The notes under the pieces are model-generated. The model saw nothing but the letters and a program-made list of their open reading frames with translations. It was not told where the DNA came from and ran no database searches. 64,000 nucleotides of DNA, taken from contig NZ_BLYC01000017.1 in the NCBI RefSeq assembly GCF_019721995.1, positions 1-64,000 on the forward strand, written 5' to 3'. The position numbers were made by a program, and so were the translations under genes. Below, in pieces: positions 45,525 to 49,664 of the stretch (its first letter is position 1; every line of letters starts with the position of its first letter). The DNA comes from Bathymodiolus japonicus methanotrophic gill symbiont. GTDB lineage: Bacteria > Pseudomonadota > Gammaproteobacteria > Methylococcales > Methylomonadaceae.

Positions 45525-45628
45525 GGAAAACAATGATGATTTCGATGCTGAGGTTGCGCAACTGTTACATGATAAAGCAAAGGTTATTTTCGATAATATA
45601 GCCAATAAACAATATATCGAAAATAATG

Positions 45629-46457
45629 GTTCTGTCGCATAAATATCCCTTCCCAACGTTATCTGCTATCATAGTTCTAAATTTCAATAAAAGGTGGATC
45701 ACATGCTCAGCTTCAAAGGCACTCACTTTCCAAAAGATGTCATTCTTTATGCTGTTTTCTTTTATGTCAGGTATGGCTTTTCGTATCGCGACCTTGAAGA
45801 AATTATGGAAGAAAGAGGTGTTGAAGTGGATCATGCTACGCTCAATCGTTGGGTTATCCGTTATTCTCCTGCCATTGCTGTAACAGCTAAATCTGAGAAA
45901 CGAGAAACCAACAAATCGTGGCGCATGGATGAAACGTATATCAAAGTGAAGGGGCAGTGGACCTATTTATACCGAGCTGTTGATAGTCACGGGGATACGC
46001 TTGATTTCATGCTTTCTGAGCACCGTGATGAAGAGGCTGCAACCGCATTTTTCAAACAAACGATTAACAATAATGGCTTTCCTGATAAGGTCGTTATGGA
46101 TAAAAGTGGCGCTAACTATGTAGGATTAGCCAATATTAACCTCTTGTTAATCCTCGCTGGGTTTGCCACTATGATCGACATATTACAGGTTAAATATTTG
46201 AATAACATCATCGAACAGGATCATCGCTTTATCAAAAAAATAACAAAACCGATGATGGGCTTTAAAGCGTTTCACTCCGCTCAAGCAACCATTGATGGAA
46301 TTGAAACAGCACATATGATCCGAAAGGGACAATTGTCTGAGGAAAATATTCCTGCTTATAAGCAGTTTATGGCTTTAGCAAGATAGTTATGCATGAAGAC
46401 CAGGAGGTCTGCGCTTTTGATAATTATTGCGACAGAACCTATTTATGCGACAGAACC
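45629..46457 (+). mobile_element. IS6-family insertion sequence
   Basis: The left end GGTTCTGTCGCA at 45629 and its complement TGCGACAGAACC ending 46439, with a second copy of the same end finishing 46457, bracket one transposase. The doubled right end suggests that one IS6 copy inserted next to the end of another or that a partial copy remains. A third, left-type end lies at 49373. Confidence 0.8.
45694..46386 (+). CDS. IS6-family transposase
   Basis: 230 aa, the normal IS6/IS26 length. HFPKDVILYAVFFYVRYGFS begins the family HTH region; SWRMDETYIKVKGQWTYLYR has the first Asp, VVMDKSGANY the second and NNIIEQDHRFIKKITKPMMG the Glu. It starts with GTG at 45694 or ATG at 45703. It appears intact and could still be active; IS6 elements move by replicative cointegrate formation. 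Confidence 0.9.
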   Translation: MDHMLSFKGTHFPKDVILYAVFFYVRYGFSYRDLEEIMEERGVEVDHATLNRWVIRYSPAIAVTAKSEKRETNKSWRMDETYIKVKGQWTYLYRAVDSHGDTLDFMLSEHRDEEAATAFFKQTINNNGFPDKVVMDKSGANYVGLANINLLLILAGFATMIDILQVKYLNNIIEQDHRFIKKITKPMMGFKAFHSAQATIDGIETAHMIRKGQLSEENIPAYKQFMALAR

Positions 46458-46467
46458 GGAAATATCA

Positions 46468-49356
46468 ATGACTACCATACAAAAAATACCACTTTTAATA
46501 ATATTCATAGCTAGTCTTCCACTACAAGCTGAATCATTACATGGGCATAGGGTTAAGGTAAAATATAATCGCGATGATGTGTCTGTCTTAACCAAGACTA
46601 TCACAGCAAGTGACGATGTAAACCCTGATATATCTGATTTCAGAGTATTCGATTTTCTCGATATGAGATACTCAATAGATTTTAAGGAAAATGTTGTATC
46701 GATAATATACACAGGTATTCATGACTACTATCACTTGCAGGTTGGCAAAGATGATAGGTTTATATTCAGAGACGTTGACGATACTTTGAACGATATTACT
46801 TGGGTCGAATTAATATGGAATAATTCTATGCTAGCAGGCATTCGTCGATCTGATATTACAGTCCTCAATAAGAATGAATTTATGATTGAAGTGGGAATGG
46901 CTGTATGTAGTGCCACATTCGCCTCTTTTCAAGATTGGCTTTTTCATGCGGACACGGAATGCCATGATGACGATAGCTCTACTGGTTATTTGAATCAGAT
47001 TAAGGTAAAAGTACACTTCTCTAATGAGAACACTACCAATGCTGAAGCGAGAGCTGCAGCAGAAAGAGCTGAAGACAGAAAAAGAGCTGATGAAGAAAGA
47101 GCTGAAAGGGTAGCTGAGTTAAGAAAAATATCTGATCCTGATTTCTCTATGGATGGACATACTATAGAAACCCGCTGGAAAGAATCAGCCATAAGTACAT
47201 CCAATCATAGAGTAGTTGTTACAGCCAGTGATCATGTGAATCCTGATATTGATGATTTCTCTACATTGCCTAATTCAGAAAAACCTGATTCTTATTTTTG
47301 GGATATAGATTTTCATGAACAGAATATTGTAATGTCATTTAGTGGCGTTGATGATTATTATATCAATGATTCTTCAGGATTTAATTTTTACGGAAACATT
47401 GTCACTATGCCTGAGATTATAGGTGTAGAAGTTATTGACACAGGTTCCTTGCCAGATGGCTTTGATCCAAATTTAGTTACTGTTGATGAGTATAATAATG
47501 TCTATGTGGATCTCAAAGGGGCAAGCATTGGTTATAACGATATTGTTAAAATAAGACTATTTTTTGCTAAAACACCAGAACTGCCAAATACTGATGAAGA
47601 TAATAGCAACATTAATGGATTTAATAATGTTGGTCTAATCACCCAGTCTTTTGATACGCATAAGATAAAAGTTAAATCTTGGGAGGTTAAAGCGGGTGAT
47701 ACTAAAGAATTTTTAAATGAGGAAACTGTTAACGCTAGTGATGAAGTTAAATTTGATGTTGAAAATTTCACTATTTATACAGAAGAAAGTTCGCCTACCG
47801 TTAATTGGAGTATAAACTTTCATGAAGATGTAATTGCATTAACGAACACATCAAACAATTATATGCATACAACATCGGCTGGGTTTTATTTTGAAGATGT
47901 AGACGATACTATGCCTGATATTCTAGGTGTAATAGCGTTTCATAATTACTATGCTCCGACAGGATTTGACCCTAGTCTAATTACATTTGATGCAAACCAT
48001 ATTTATGTGGATTTAAAAGGCTCAAACTGCTCTTTATTATGTCATTTTGAAGAAAGTCCAACTAGGTATAAAAACCGTATTATTTTAAAAGTCATTTTTG
48101 CAGTTGATTACCCTAGAGTTGATACCTTACTAAACGCTATAGAATTAGTGAACTCTGTTAATTTCCCTGGTCATAAAGAGTCATATATACATCGCTGGGG
48201 AACATCCTATAAACGTTACTACCCTATCTCTAATAACTATCTTAAAGTTGAGAATAACACAGTATACATGGAAGGTGATGATTACGAAGGTTTAGTAAAT
48301 GCTGGTACATTAGATACATTGTATGAAACTTATAATGTACCTGAAACAGTAGATACTCTTCAATCATTTTATGGGCATAATATATACGTAAACTATGCGT
48401 TTAATCATCTTTCTGAAGATGACCCTAAAAGAATTAAAGGAGAAAAAACTGTTACAGTGAATTCTAAGATAAATCCTGACATTCGACTCTTCAAACCTTA
48501 TCCTGAGCATGATTTTATTAATTGGGGTATAAATTTCAAAGAGGACACCTTAGAGCTAATCTATAGGACTAATATATCAACCACTTTCTCTAGTGGTGAT
48601 AAAAAAATTGGATTTAACTTTGTTGATGTTGACAACACTATGCCAGATATACTTAACGTATCAATGGCAGACTCTAACTACACTATGCCGGGGTTTGATC
48701 CCTCACTTATTGTATTTGATAAAGACAGTATTTTCGTTGATCTAAGCGGCGTATATTGTACTGAGTGGGTTGATGAGACACATAATTATTGTCCAAACTC
48801 TGATAGCCCAACAGGTAGAAATAACATCATCAGTCTGAAAGTAGAATTTGATATTCCTCTAGAACAGAAAAGAACAAAGGTTGATACTAAACGTGTTGAC
48901 GCACTATTTGATACTTTAGAAACGGAATATCCTCAATATTTTCCTGATCATAAAGAATCCTATTTCTTAGAAGATAGTACGGATTATGTTCGTTACTATG
49001 CTAGTACTGATTTTTTTCTAAAAGTAAAAGATAATAAGCTATATTTTGAAGGTGGTGAGTTCGATAGTGAAAGTGATAGAGGAACTCTAGATTCTATGTA
49101 CTTACTGTATGATATTCCTGACTTTTCAAGAATTGACTTATTATTTTATGCTGTAGAATTGAAGTACCCAAGCTATTTTCCCTCACACCCAGAGTCTAGT
49201 GTTTTTGATAGCGGTTACTATGGACGATACTACCCAACAACTAAAAATTATATGGGAATTAAAGATAAAGGAGGGTACGTATGGGGTGATAGTTTTGGTG
49301 GAGTAGTTTATACAGGTACTTTAGATAGCTTATATACAGAATATAATATTCCCTAG
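46468..49356 (+). CDS. Large secreted repeat protein with two kinds of module
   Basis: 963 aa from ATG 46468, chosen because it opens with a signal peptide (MTTIQKIPLLIIFIASLPLQ, then AES); the frame also opens inside the IS6 end upstream. The first ~560 and a later ~160 residues hold four copies of a ~120-residue module with signature DxVNPDIxxF, WxIxFxExxI, DVDDTMPDIL, GFDPSLITFD and IYVDLKG. A short charged coiled coil links modules 1 and 2. Three copies of a ~75-residue module follow or intervene: YFPSHPESSxF, RYYPTTKNYMGI, GTLDSLYxxYNIP. Neither module has a catalytic signature; beta-rich surface or adhesion domains are likely. Confidence 0.7.
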   Translation: MTTIQKIPLLIIFIASLPLQAESLHGHRVKVKYNRDDVSVLTKTITASDDVNPDISDFRVFDFLDMRYSIDFKENVVSIIYTGIHDYYHLQVGKDDRFIFRDVDDTLNDITWVELIWNNSMLAGIRRSDITVLNKNEFMIEVGMAVCSATFASFQDWLFHADTECHDDDSSTGYLNQIKVKVHFSNENTTNAEARAAAERAEDRKRADEERAERVAELRKISDPDFSMDGHTIETRWKESAISTSNHRVVVTASDHVNPDIDDFSTLPNSEKPDSYFWDIDFHEQNIVMSFSGVDDYYINDSSGFNFYGNIVTMPEIIGVEVIDTGSLPDGFDPNLVTVDEYNNVYVDLKGASIGYNDIVKIRLFFAKTPELPNTDEDNSNINGFNNVGLITQSFDTHKIKVKSWEVKAGDTKEFLNEETVNASDEVKFDVENFTIYTEESSPTVNWSINFHEDVIALTNTSNNYMHTTSAGFYFEDVDDTMPDILGVIAFHNYYAPTGFDPSLITFDANHIYVDLKGSNCSLLCHFEESPTRYKNRIILKVIFAVDYPRVDTLLNAIELVNSVNFPGHKESYIHRWGTSYKRYYPISNNYLKVENNTVYMEGDDYEGLVNAGTLDTLYETYNVPETVDTLQSFYGHNIYVNYAFNHLSEDDPKRIKGEKTVTVNSKINPDIRLFKPYPEHDFINWGINFKEDTLELIYRTNISTTFSSGDKKIGFNFVDVDNTMPDILNVSMADSNYTMPGFDPSLIVFDKDSIFVDLSGVYCTEWVDETHNYCPNSDSPTGRNNIISLKVEFDIPLEQKRTKVDTKRVDALFDTLETEYPQYFPDHKESYFLEDSTDYVRYYASTDFFLKVKDNKLYFEGGEFDSESDRGTLDSMYLLYDIPDFSRIDLLFYAVELKYPSYFPSHPESSVFDSGYYGRYYPTTKNYMGIKDKGGYVWGDSFGGVVYTGTLDSLYTEYNIP

Positions 49357-49372: not shown

Positions 49373-49384
49373 GGTTCTGTCGCA
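49373..49384 (+). mobile_element. IS6 terminal repeat, rest of the element lost
   Basis: GGTTCTGTCGCA is identical to the left end at 45629 and is followed at once by element A4 instead of the IS6 body. The repeat-protein gene is therefore bracketed by IS6 ends. Confidence 0.7.
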
Positions 49385-49664
49385 CGCTGAAAATCATGGA
49401 AACGTAGCTTAGCGAAGTGGTGATTTTTAGTCCCTGATAGGCGACAGGGCAATTCGCTGATTCGACGTGTGCTAGCAGCACGCGAGAGGAGCAAGAATTG
49501 GATTCCGAATAGCCGTCCAGCCAGTGAGGTAGTAATGACGAAGCGGCTTTTGTGCGTAGTCGTTGCGGACGCGGGGCGTTCAGGGCATCTCCCATCCGCT
49601 GCGTAGGTGAACGAATTATGGCGACAGGAGTCCCGGAATTTCGTGAGGTAGCATGGCGCGCCTG
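49385..49664 (+). repeat. CGCTG element type A (copy A4, 280 bp)
   Basis: Full length, with a G-G and other single changes against the other copies. It begins directly after an IS6 end and is followed by GTATTACTTATT. Whether the right flank was once joined to IS6 cannot be told here. Confidence 0.9.

Follow-up and report, generated by a model that had tools for sequence, protein, structure and literature searches.

A secreted seven-module protein of a mussel methanotroph symbiont and its probable ancestry in a copper-uptake type locus

Architecture of P0001

The window analyzed here is a stretch of 64,000 nucleotides from the methanotrophic gill symbiont of Bathymodiolus japonicus (Methylomonadaceae; contig NZ_BLYC01000017.1, positions 1 to 64,000). 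At 46468–49356 on the forward strand, an intact frame of 962 codons encodes a secreted multi-module protein of 962 amino acids, hereafter P0001, which is defined by the frame, by profile hits and by a full-length ortholog (L003:4065-6926). The coordinates and reading frame given in the original prediction, which was made from the sequence alone, are correct. An alternative in-frame ATG at 46393 lies inside an end of an IS6-family insertion sequence, and the ortholog begins at the position equivalent to 46468. P0001 is a real, uncatalogued modular protein; the reading preferred here is that it derives from a copper-uptake accessory protein by expansion and mobilisation.

Behind a predicted signal peptide (residues 1–21; 46468–46530), four copies of a module A (145–169 amino acids) and three copies of a module B (78–81 amino acids) follow each other in the order A-A-A-B-A-B-B. 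The signal peptide had been proposed before and is supported by hydropathy, with no lipobox found; the call is a judgement from hydropathy rather than the output of a dedicated predictor. The counts of four and three modules were likewise anticipated, whereas the length of about 120 residues then given for the first type is too short and the strict alternation of the two types does not hold. All modules are encoded on the forward strand. A1 (residues 22–187; 46531–47028) is the most diverged and has Tyr in place of a conserved Trp; a charged linker rich in Ala, Glu and Arg (47029–47145) separates it from A2 (residues 227–371; 47146–47580), which has no Cys. Both were delimited by profiles and alignment. 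A3 (residues 394–549; 47647–48114), predicted to be all-beta, and B1 (residues 547–626; 48106–48345) were assigned by profiles and structure prediction, A4 (residues 631–799; 48358–48864) and B2 (residues 804–884; 48877–49119) by profiles, and B3 (residues 885–962; 49120–49353) by profiles and AlphaFold2. The six cysteines of P0001 occur in pairs within A1, A3 and A4.

The repeats are demonstrated by profiles built without any sequence of the window. The A profile comprises eight rows, all from other genomes, and the B profile 18 rows from other proteins, after rows of the window, L003 and L002 had been dropped. They yield four A hits (36.3, 60.1, 102.7 and 87.0 bits) and three B hits (41.4, 54.5 and 57.4 bits) in P0001, with a fourth B match at the chance level of −3.2 bits; the highest scores among shuffled sequences (n = 200) are 6.0 bits for A and 6.4 bits for B. 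Since a BLASTP comparison of P0001 with itself returns the full-length match only and no off-diagonal match, the repeats are diverged, and their proof is the profile test. The copies are 32–41% identical to A3 and 42–45% identical to B3. An AlphaFold2 model of A3-B1, for which the input alignment consisted of the window and L003 rows only, has a mean predicted local distance difference test score (pLDDT) of 81.9 and a predicted template modelling score (pTM) of 0.69. It shows A as nearly all beta and B as helix, strands and helix. B3 modelled alone is predicted as a helix, four strands and a helix (pLDDT 92.9, pTM 0.82).

Family searches and distribution

Modules A and B have no convincing match in Pfam, NCBIfam, PHROGs or PDB and are uncatalogued secreted modules. 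P0001 gives no match at E ≤ 10 in Pfam and NCBIfam and one chance-level hit (E 0.2) in PHROGs, module A finds nothing under E 0.06 among PDB sequences, and 22 B members scanned against PHROGs give two single-member hits (E 0.04–0.07). A match of B to designed 'Cake' proteins in PDB is not taken as kinship, because it rests on a repeated 15-residue piece of which no stretch is significant alone. Module A had been left unrecognised at the outset and remains so by family search, and neither module has the strong match to a characterised family that could have overturned the original prediction. The same holds for the families of known copper-binding proteins: for both PF18252 (CorA/MopE) and TIGR04052 (MbnP), neither P0001 (E ≤ 10) nor two A-B proteins of related genomes (E ≤ 1) give a match. 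Kinship of module A with CorA or the CorA-like proteins described below is rejected, as hhalign gives 0.2% for A against CorA and no profile similarity. Among the rows shown for the fold searches, CorA and MopE are absent. The best VIA Z scores (4.9 for the A3-B1 model and 5.5 for B3) lie inside the common background of that tool; CTLA-4, transthyretin, polo-box, SycT and others appear as weak, tied rows and are not interpreted. Plasmid records and viral contigs hold no relatives with the queries tried.

The distribution of both modules was followed in samples of the family (151 genomes), the class (321 genomes) and the phylum (299 genomes); G000 denotes the genome of the window. Module A is present in ten of the family genomes: G008, G058, G077, G097, G098 and G105, then G000, G100 and G113 of genus g1, and G026. 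In the class sample it is found in the window's own genome only. The G026 match is partial (positions 53–126, E 5.2e-7, within a frame of 739 amino acids), so that A may belong to a wider group. Eight of the ten A genomes, that of the window included, carry pmoA. PF18252 is found over its cut-off in 34 genomes and overlaps with one of the ten A genomes (p 0.46); mutual exclusion of CorA and A is not claimed. Module B is more widespread, with 28 of the 151 family genomes and two of the 299 genomes of the phylum sample (that of the window and G559). It occurs in many types of protein, including cytochromes, LVIVD and PQQ propellers, a prolyl isomerase, a phytase-like protein, a DUF3465 protein and a secreted RHS protein, which bears out the earlier description of B as a recurrent module of bacterial hypothetical proteins. 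RHS proteins usually have a variable tip at their C-terminal end; in the RHS-repeat protein of the window genome (1026 amino acids; L084:6895-9975, G000:C46) this end is module B.

Single-unit A-B proteins beside a copper-type receptor

In relatives, A and B form a small secreted protein. This single A-B unit is encoded at eight loci in open frames of 276–294 amino acids. In all five genomes that have both genes on one contig, it lies directly downstream of a TonB-dependent receptor gene on the same strand, with gaps to the first possible start codon of 62 (G058), 51 (G077), 52 (G008), 36 (G105) and 46 bp (G098); the first four genomes belong to genus g9 and G098 to g17. The G058 receptor, which is the one covered by the scan, matches the TonB-dependent copper receptor family TIGR01778 over nearly its full length with 463.4 bits. 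The other receptors were judged by their identity to that of G077 (49–92%). At E ≤ 1e-80, this receptor is present in six of the 151 genomes (G008, G058, G077, G097, G098 and G105), and all six carry A (Fisher p 1.4e-8 by genome and 0.0027 by genus). The previously unrecognised module A is thereby tied to a likely copper-receptor locus.

Further genes recur at these five loci. A di-haem gene lies upstream in four, G008 being the exception; a CorA-like gene is found in four, the G105 contig ending before it; an F5/8-type-C gene and a five-haem gene each occur in three. The CorA-like proteins retain GWTHTSDW, and we take the oxidised Trp of CorA to be the Trp of its GWTH motif. As a set they align with CorA in hhalign (91% across 38 columns, with GWTHxSxW). 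Five of the ten A genomes have A together with a CorA-like gene (p 0.003). In the single units themselves, a loop GSMC..C is present in eight of eight, with His after the first Cys in seven, and the Trp of a W-x-[IV]-x-F motif occurs in all eight as well as in three of the four A modules of the window.

In the sixth genome, G097, no more than about 134 bases separate the start of the A-B gene from a contig end; the receptor is on a separate contig, which also encodes two CorA-like proteins and a di-haem protein ending in module B. The latter (L122:4897-7191, G097:C58) is MbnH/CorB-like and divergently oriented from the receptor and the two CorA-like genes. Elsewhere (L126:1-20000, G007:C45), three CorA-like genes share a 20-kb stretch with several genes with many CxxCH motifs, one of them with 18.

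In genus g1, the lone A-B genes of G113 and G100 adjoin FtsH and uracil-DNA glycosylase genes and not a receptor. The same FtsH/glycosylase pair lies in G086 (L124) beside a CorA-like operon with a TonB receptor followed by a protein, termed X-B, with another domain in front of B. Both names rest on PDB matches found with the G113 genes. The glycosylases of the three genomes are 72–79% identical to one another and the FtsH copies 66–88%, L124 including only a fragment of FtsH where the stretch ends. The orientations differ: X-B and the glycosylase gene converge, while A-B lies downstream of the glycosylase gene on the same strand. G113 also has a different TonB locus, which encodes a CorA-type protein with a B tail.

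Module B beside other receptors

Forty further B loci, a subset of all B hits, were compared with 40 control stretches after the A-B operons and L122–L124 had been set aside. A TonB receptor gene is present in six of them and in none of the controls (p 0.026), and in five of the six the receptor and B genes share a strand and are adjacent or almost so. This difference is to be read with the following in mind: one locus (G113) was chosen after TonB hits near it were known, several stretches end at contig ends, the control positions were spread by hand, and the receptor profile was seeded mostly from receptors beside B genes, so that the controls may be under-counted. Three of the loci, L140 (G131), L148 (G065) and L158 (G113), share one gene order: a CorA-type protein with a B tail, a protein of 725–764 amino acids with two CxxCH motifs, a TonB receptor and an X-B protein. 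The L158 member of the 725–764-residue class matches solved di-haem peroxidases and MauG (best 3.4e-16). Close kinship of this class with the di-haem enzyme of the A-B loci is rejected, the best BLAST E of 4e-4 covering short pieces. The kinship of the B-tailed CorA-type proteins with CorA is only suggestive: a CorA hidden Markov model gives 2.4e-4 (L158), 0.0028 (L148) and no match for the partial L140 copy, in a scan in which an unrelated frame of L123 scored 0.0058, and hhalign gives 8% (E 0.0043) against CorA and 1.6% against the CorA-like set. The X-B proteins (L140:5952-6746, L148:6442-7236, L158:800-1651 and L124:1942-2700), each beside a TonB receptor, combine a domain without family match, a Cys/Met/His stretch and the B tail; the A profile leaves them unlisted or at E > 0.2. 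At another locus (L123:7346-11653, G097:C87), a TonB receptor that is ZnuD-like, not copper-like, lies between two B-tailed proteins that are 34% identical to each other.

Two readings of module B were considered. B may serve cell-surface or secretion functions in general, and A may be a beta-sandwich that binds ligands of various kinds, in which case P0001 would be a symbiont surface adhesin or host-interaction protein with a purely historical link to copper. We regard this as possible yet doubtful. The range of B carriers, from prolyl isomerase and propellers to the secreted RHS protein, speaks for it, as do the loss of metal-type residues from the A modules of the window and the neighbours of the ortholog and of a truncated copy, namely Lcl_C-like proteins (two below and one above the curated cut-off) and plasmid-initiator or resolvase genes. 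It accounts less well for the presence of A in all six genomes with the copper-type receptor, and for B on the di-haem enzyme of the CorA-like/TonB locus of G097 and on CorA-type proteins beside TonB receptors. Bolder, and in our view rather unlikely, is the proposal that B is a shared docking tag of methanotroph outer-membrane metal receptors, by which a copper relay would be assembled on the TonB receptor; mobile DNA would then have spread a scaffold form with seven modules, P0001, among symbiont-type methanotrophs. The carriers in question are the putative copper binders A-B, X-B and CorA-type-B and, in one genome, a di-haem enzyme that is putatively tryptophan-oxidising.

Orthologs and mobile setting of the gene

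The ortholog L003 belongs to the Bathymodiolus platifrons methanotrophic gill symbiont (NZ_BDMN01000291.1) and is the only relative found among the genome contigs, its own contig agreeing with G100:C291 of the window's genus. The best segment is 80% identical; at the amino-acid level, identity ranges from 51% in A1 up to 96–99% in A4 and B3. In trees, every A and B module groups with its L003 counterpart, deeper branches being long and partly unsure; this pairing implies that the seven-module layout is older than the split of the two proteins. A second copy in G100 (L083:7509-8840, C210) is truncated by an IS6 insertion; its contig also encodes an Lcl_C protein and a resolvase. Over its initial 430 residues, this interrupted copy is 94% identical to P0001, so that two N-terminal versions exist in G100.

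A mobile setting of the P0001 gene is supported. The guanine-cytosine content is 33–37% across the gene versus 38–44% in its surroundings, and its neighbours are a DAK2-domain gene, IS6 and an endonuclease gene. An intact IS6-family element of 812 bp (45628–46439, forward strand; transposase 45694–46386, PF13610) ends 28 bases ahead of the start codon. In between lies a solo IS6 end of 18 bp, an inverted copy of the left end (46440–46457, reverse strand), 10 bases before the start codon; a second solo end of 12 bp (49373–49384, forward strand) follows 16 bases after the stop codon. Counted with ≤1 mismatch, the IS6 12-mer has four sites in the window, namely the two ends of the intact element and the two solo ends. 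A repeat of about 280 bp adjoins at 49385–49664, with at least 57 genome matches to a 455-bp query, itself included, mostly 97–99% and some 80–88% identical. IS6 is present in the window genome as at least 55 matching pieces, the intact element included. The IS6 ends on both sides were thus noted correctly, but movement of the gene as a unit does not follow from them: a full IS6 copy is present on the upstream side only, the downstream side having just a 12-bp end; no 8-bp target duplication surrounds the intact element (AAAATAAT versus TATTTATG); the two full-length orthologs have the solo end at different distances past the stop codon, 16 and 34 bases; and a third copy is itself interrupted by IS6. 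A composite IS6 transposon is not supported. The L003 contig carries a plasmid-type Rep3 initiator gene, which makes mobility of some kind plausible, next to the two Lcl_C-like proteins under the curated cut-off. In symbionts of G. platifrons, transposable elements play a part in the loss and gain of genes, according to an excerpt of PMC10652631.

Such a setting raises the alternative that the P0001 gene is a decaying insertion-sequence passenger without current function, which we consider quite unlikely. The solo end just ahead of the start codon, the IS6-cut copy in G100, the divergence of A1, a genome rich in IS6 and repeats, and the lack of promoter- or terminator-like sites above chance level at the gene all fit decay, as does the ratio of nonsynonymous to synonymous substitution rates (dN/dS) of 0.56 over the full comparison with L003. 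Against it stand the intact frames of both the window gene and its ortholog, the low dN/dS of B1 (0.11) and B2 (0.30), and the conservation of A4 and B3. That P0001 is part of a polymorphic-toxin or RHS-type system, with B as effector tip, is very improbable: the B-tailed RHS-repeat protein of the same genome points that way, but in other proteins B also lies close to the N-terminus, it recurs within a single chain, and P0001 matches no toxin family.

A proposed derivative of a copper-uptake accessory protein

From its gene neighbourhood in relatives, an ancestry of P0001 in a methanotroph locus of copper-uptake type appears quite probable. We further favor, by a modest degree, the reading that P0001 is a secreted multi-module derivative of an A-B copper-uptake accessory protein, acting as a multivalent extracellular binder of copper-system ancestry; its location is probably the cell surface. 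Module structure, co-location, co-occurrence and motif conservation are observed, and on them rest the proposals of copper binding, surface docking and hand-over that follow. The single-unit A-B proteins are likely candidates for copper binding. In related methanotrophs, the A-B protein would serve a likely TonB locus for copper uptake as its accessory component, with A as a beta-sandwich that may bind copper via its conserved Met/Cys/His loop (GSMCHxxxMxSMPxC) and a nearby YMYM-like motif, and B as a small alpha/beta module that may anchor the protein to the receptor or the cell surface. Loading or modification of copper ligands could fall to the CorA-like and di-haem partners, and import of the metal to the TonB receptor. 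P0001 may have arisen via duplication of both modules of such an A-B protein of about 285 amino acids. It retains the pattern of modules and three pairs of Cys, and three of its four A modules keep the Trp. Because the Met/His motif is lost and no copper locus adjoins, the present function of P0001 can only be inferred.

Several observations weigh against this account. The Met/Cys/His loop (GSMC..C) occurs in none of the four A modules of the window, and an overall dN/dS of 0.56 shows only moderate constraint. G000, G100 and G113 carry A and have no receptor ortholog (best identity 27%, none and 29%, respectively), no PF18252 and no CorA-like hit. The G058 receptor scores slightly below the curated TIGR01778 cut-off of 472.45 bits, the CorA-like match to PF18252 is below its cut-off, and the di-haem enzymes match TIGR04039 weakly (7.2e-5 and 1.6e-7); for the G058 enzyme, the best solved di-haem match (E 0.03) ranks beneath a spurious hit to a RecA construct. 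Foldseek finds no solved structure at E ≤ 0.001 for either the A3-B1 or the B3 model. Finally, 34 of the 40 further B loci have no TonB receptor in the fetched stretch, so that B is not tied to receptors alone.

Several known systems offer the closest comparisons. CorA/CorB of Methylomicrobium album and MopE/SACCP of Methylococcus capsulatus, from the same host group, likewise combine a secreted copper-binding protein with a di-haem peroxidase-like enzyme; in CorA, which is co-transcribed with the di-haem CorB, the copper site comprises two His and a Trp oxidised to kynurenine (both from an excerpt of PMC3912023). Most A-B loci, too, have a di-haem gene and encode a CorA-like protein in which GWTHTSDW is present, but A is not CorA, and A-B would be an additional component. 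MbnP/MbnH pairs (TIGR04052/TIGR04039) resemble the A-B loci through the weak TIGR04039 matches and also adjoin TonB transporters, as stated in an excerpt of PMC3621798; the two scanned A-B proteins differ in lacking a TIGR04052 match. The likeness to TIGR01778 lies in the G058 gene upstream of A-B, whose ligand is predicted. CRC1 of Methylococcus capsulatus, in which multihaem cytochromes and a TonB receptor are induced by copper limitation (excerpt of PMC4831470), is comparable by gene types. Literature searches, confined to open-licence PMC papers and judged by title, abstract opening and excerpt, brought up no description of an A-B type protein at a locus of this kind.

At the A-B locus, a protein of two modules not described before comes together with a TonB receptor of copper type, a CorA-like protein and a di-haem partner; these provide testable parts for how methanotrophs may collect copper. 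To them are added two uncatalogued secreted modules, seen multiplied in a symbiont-type lineage.

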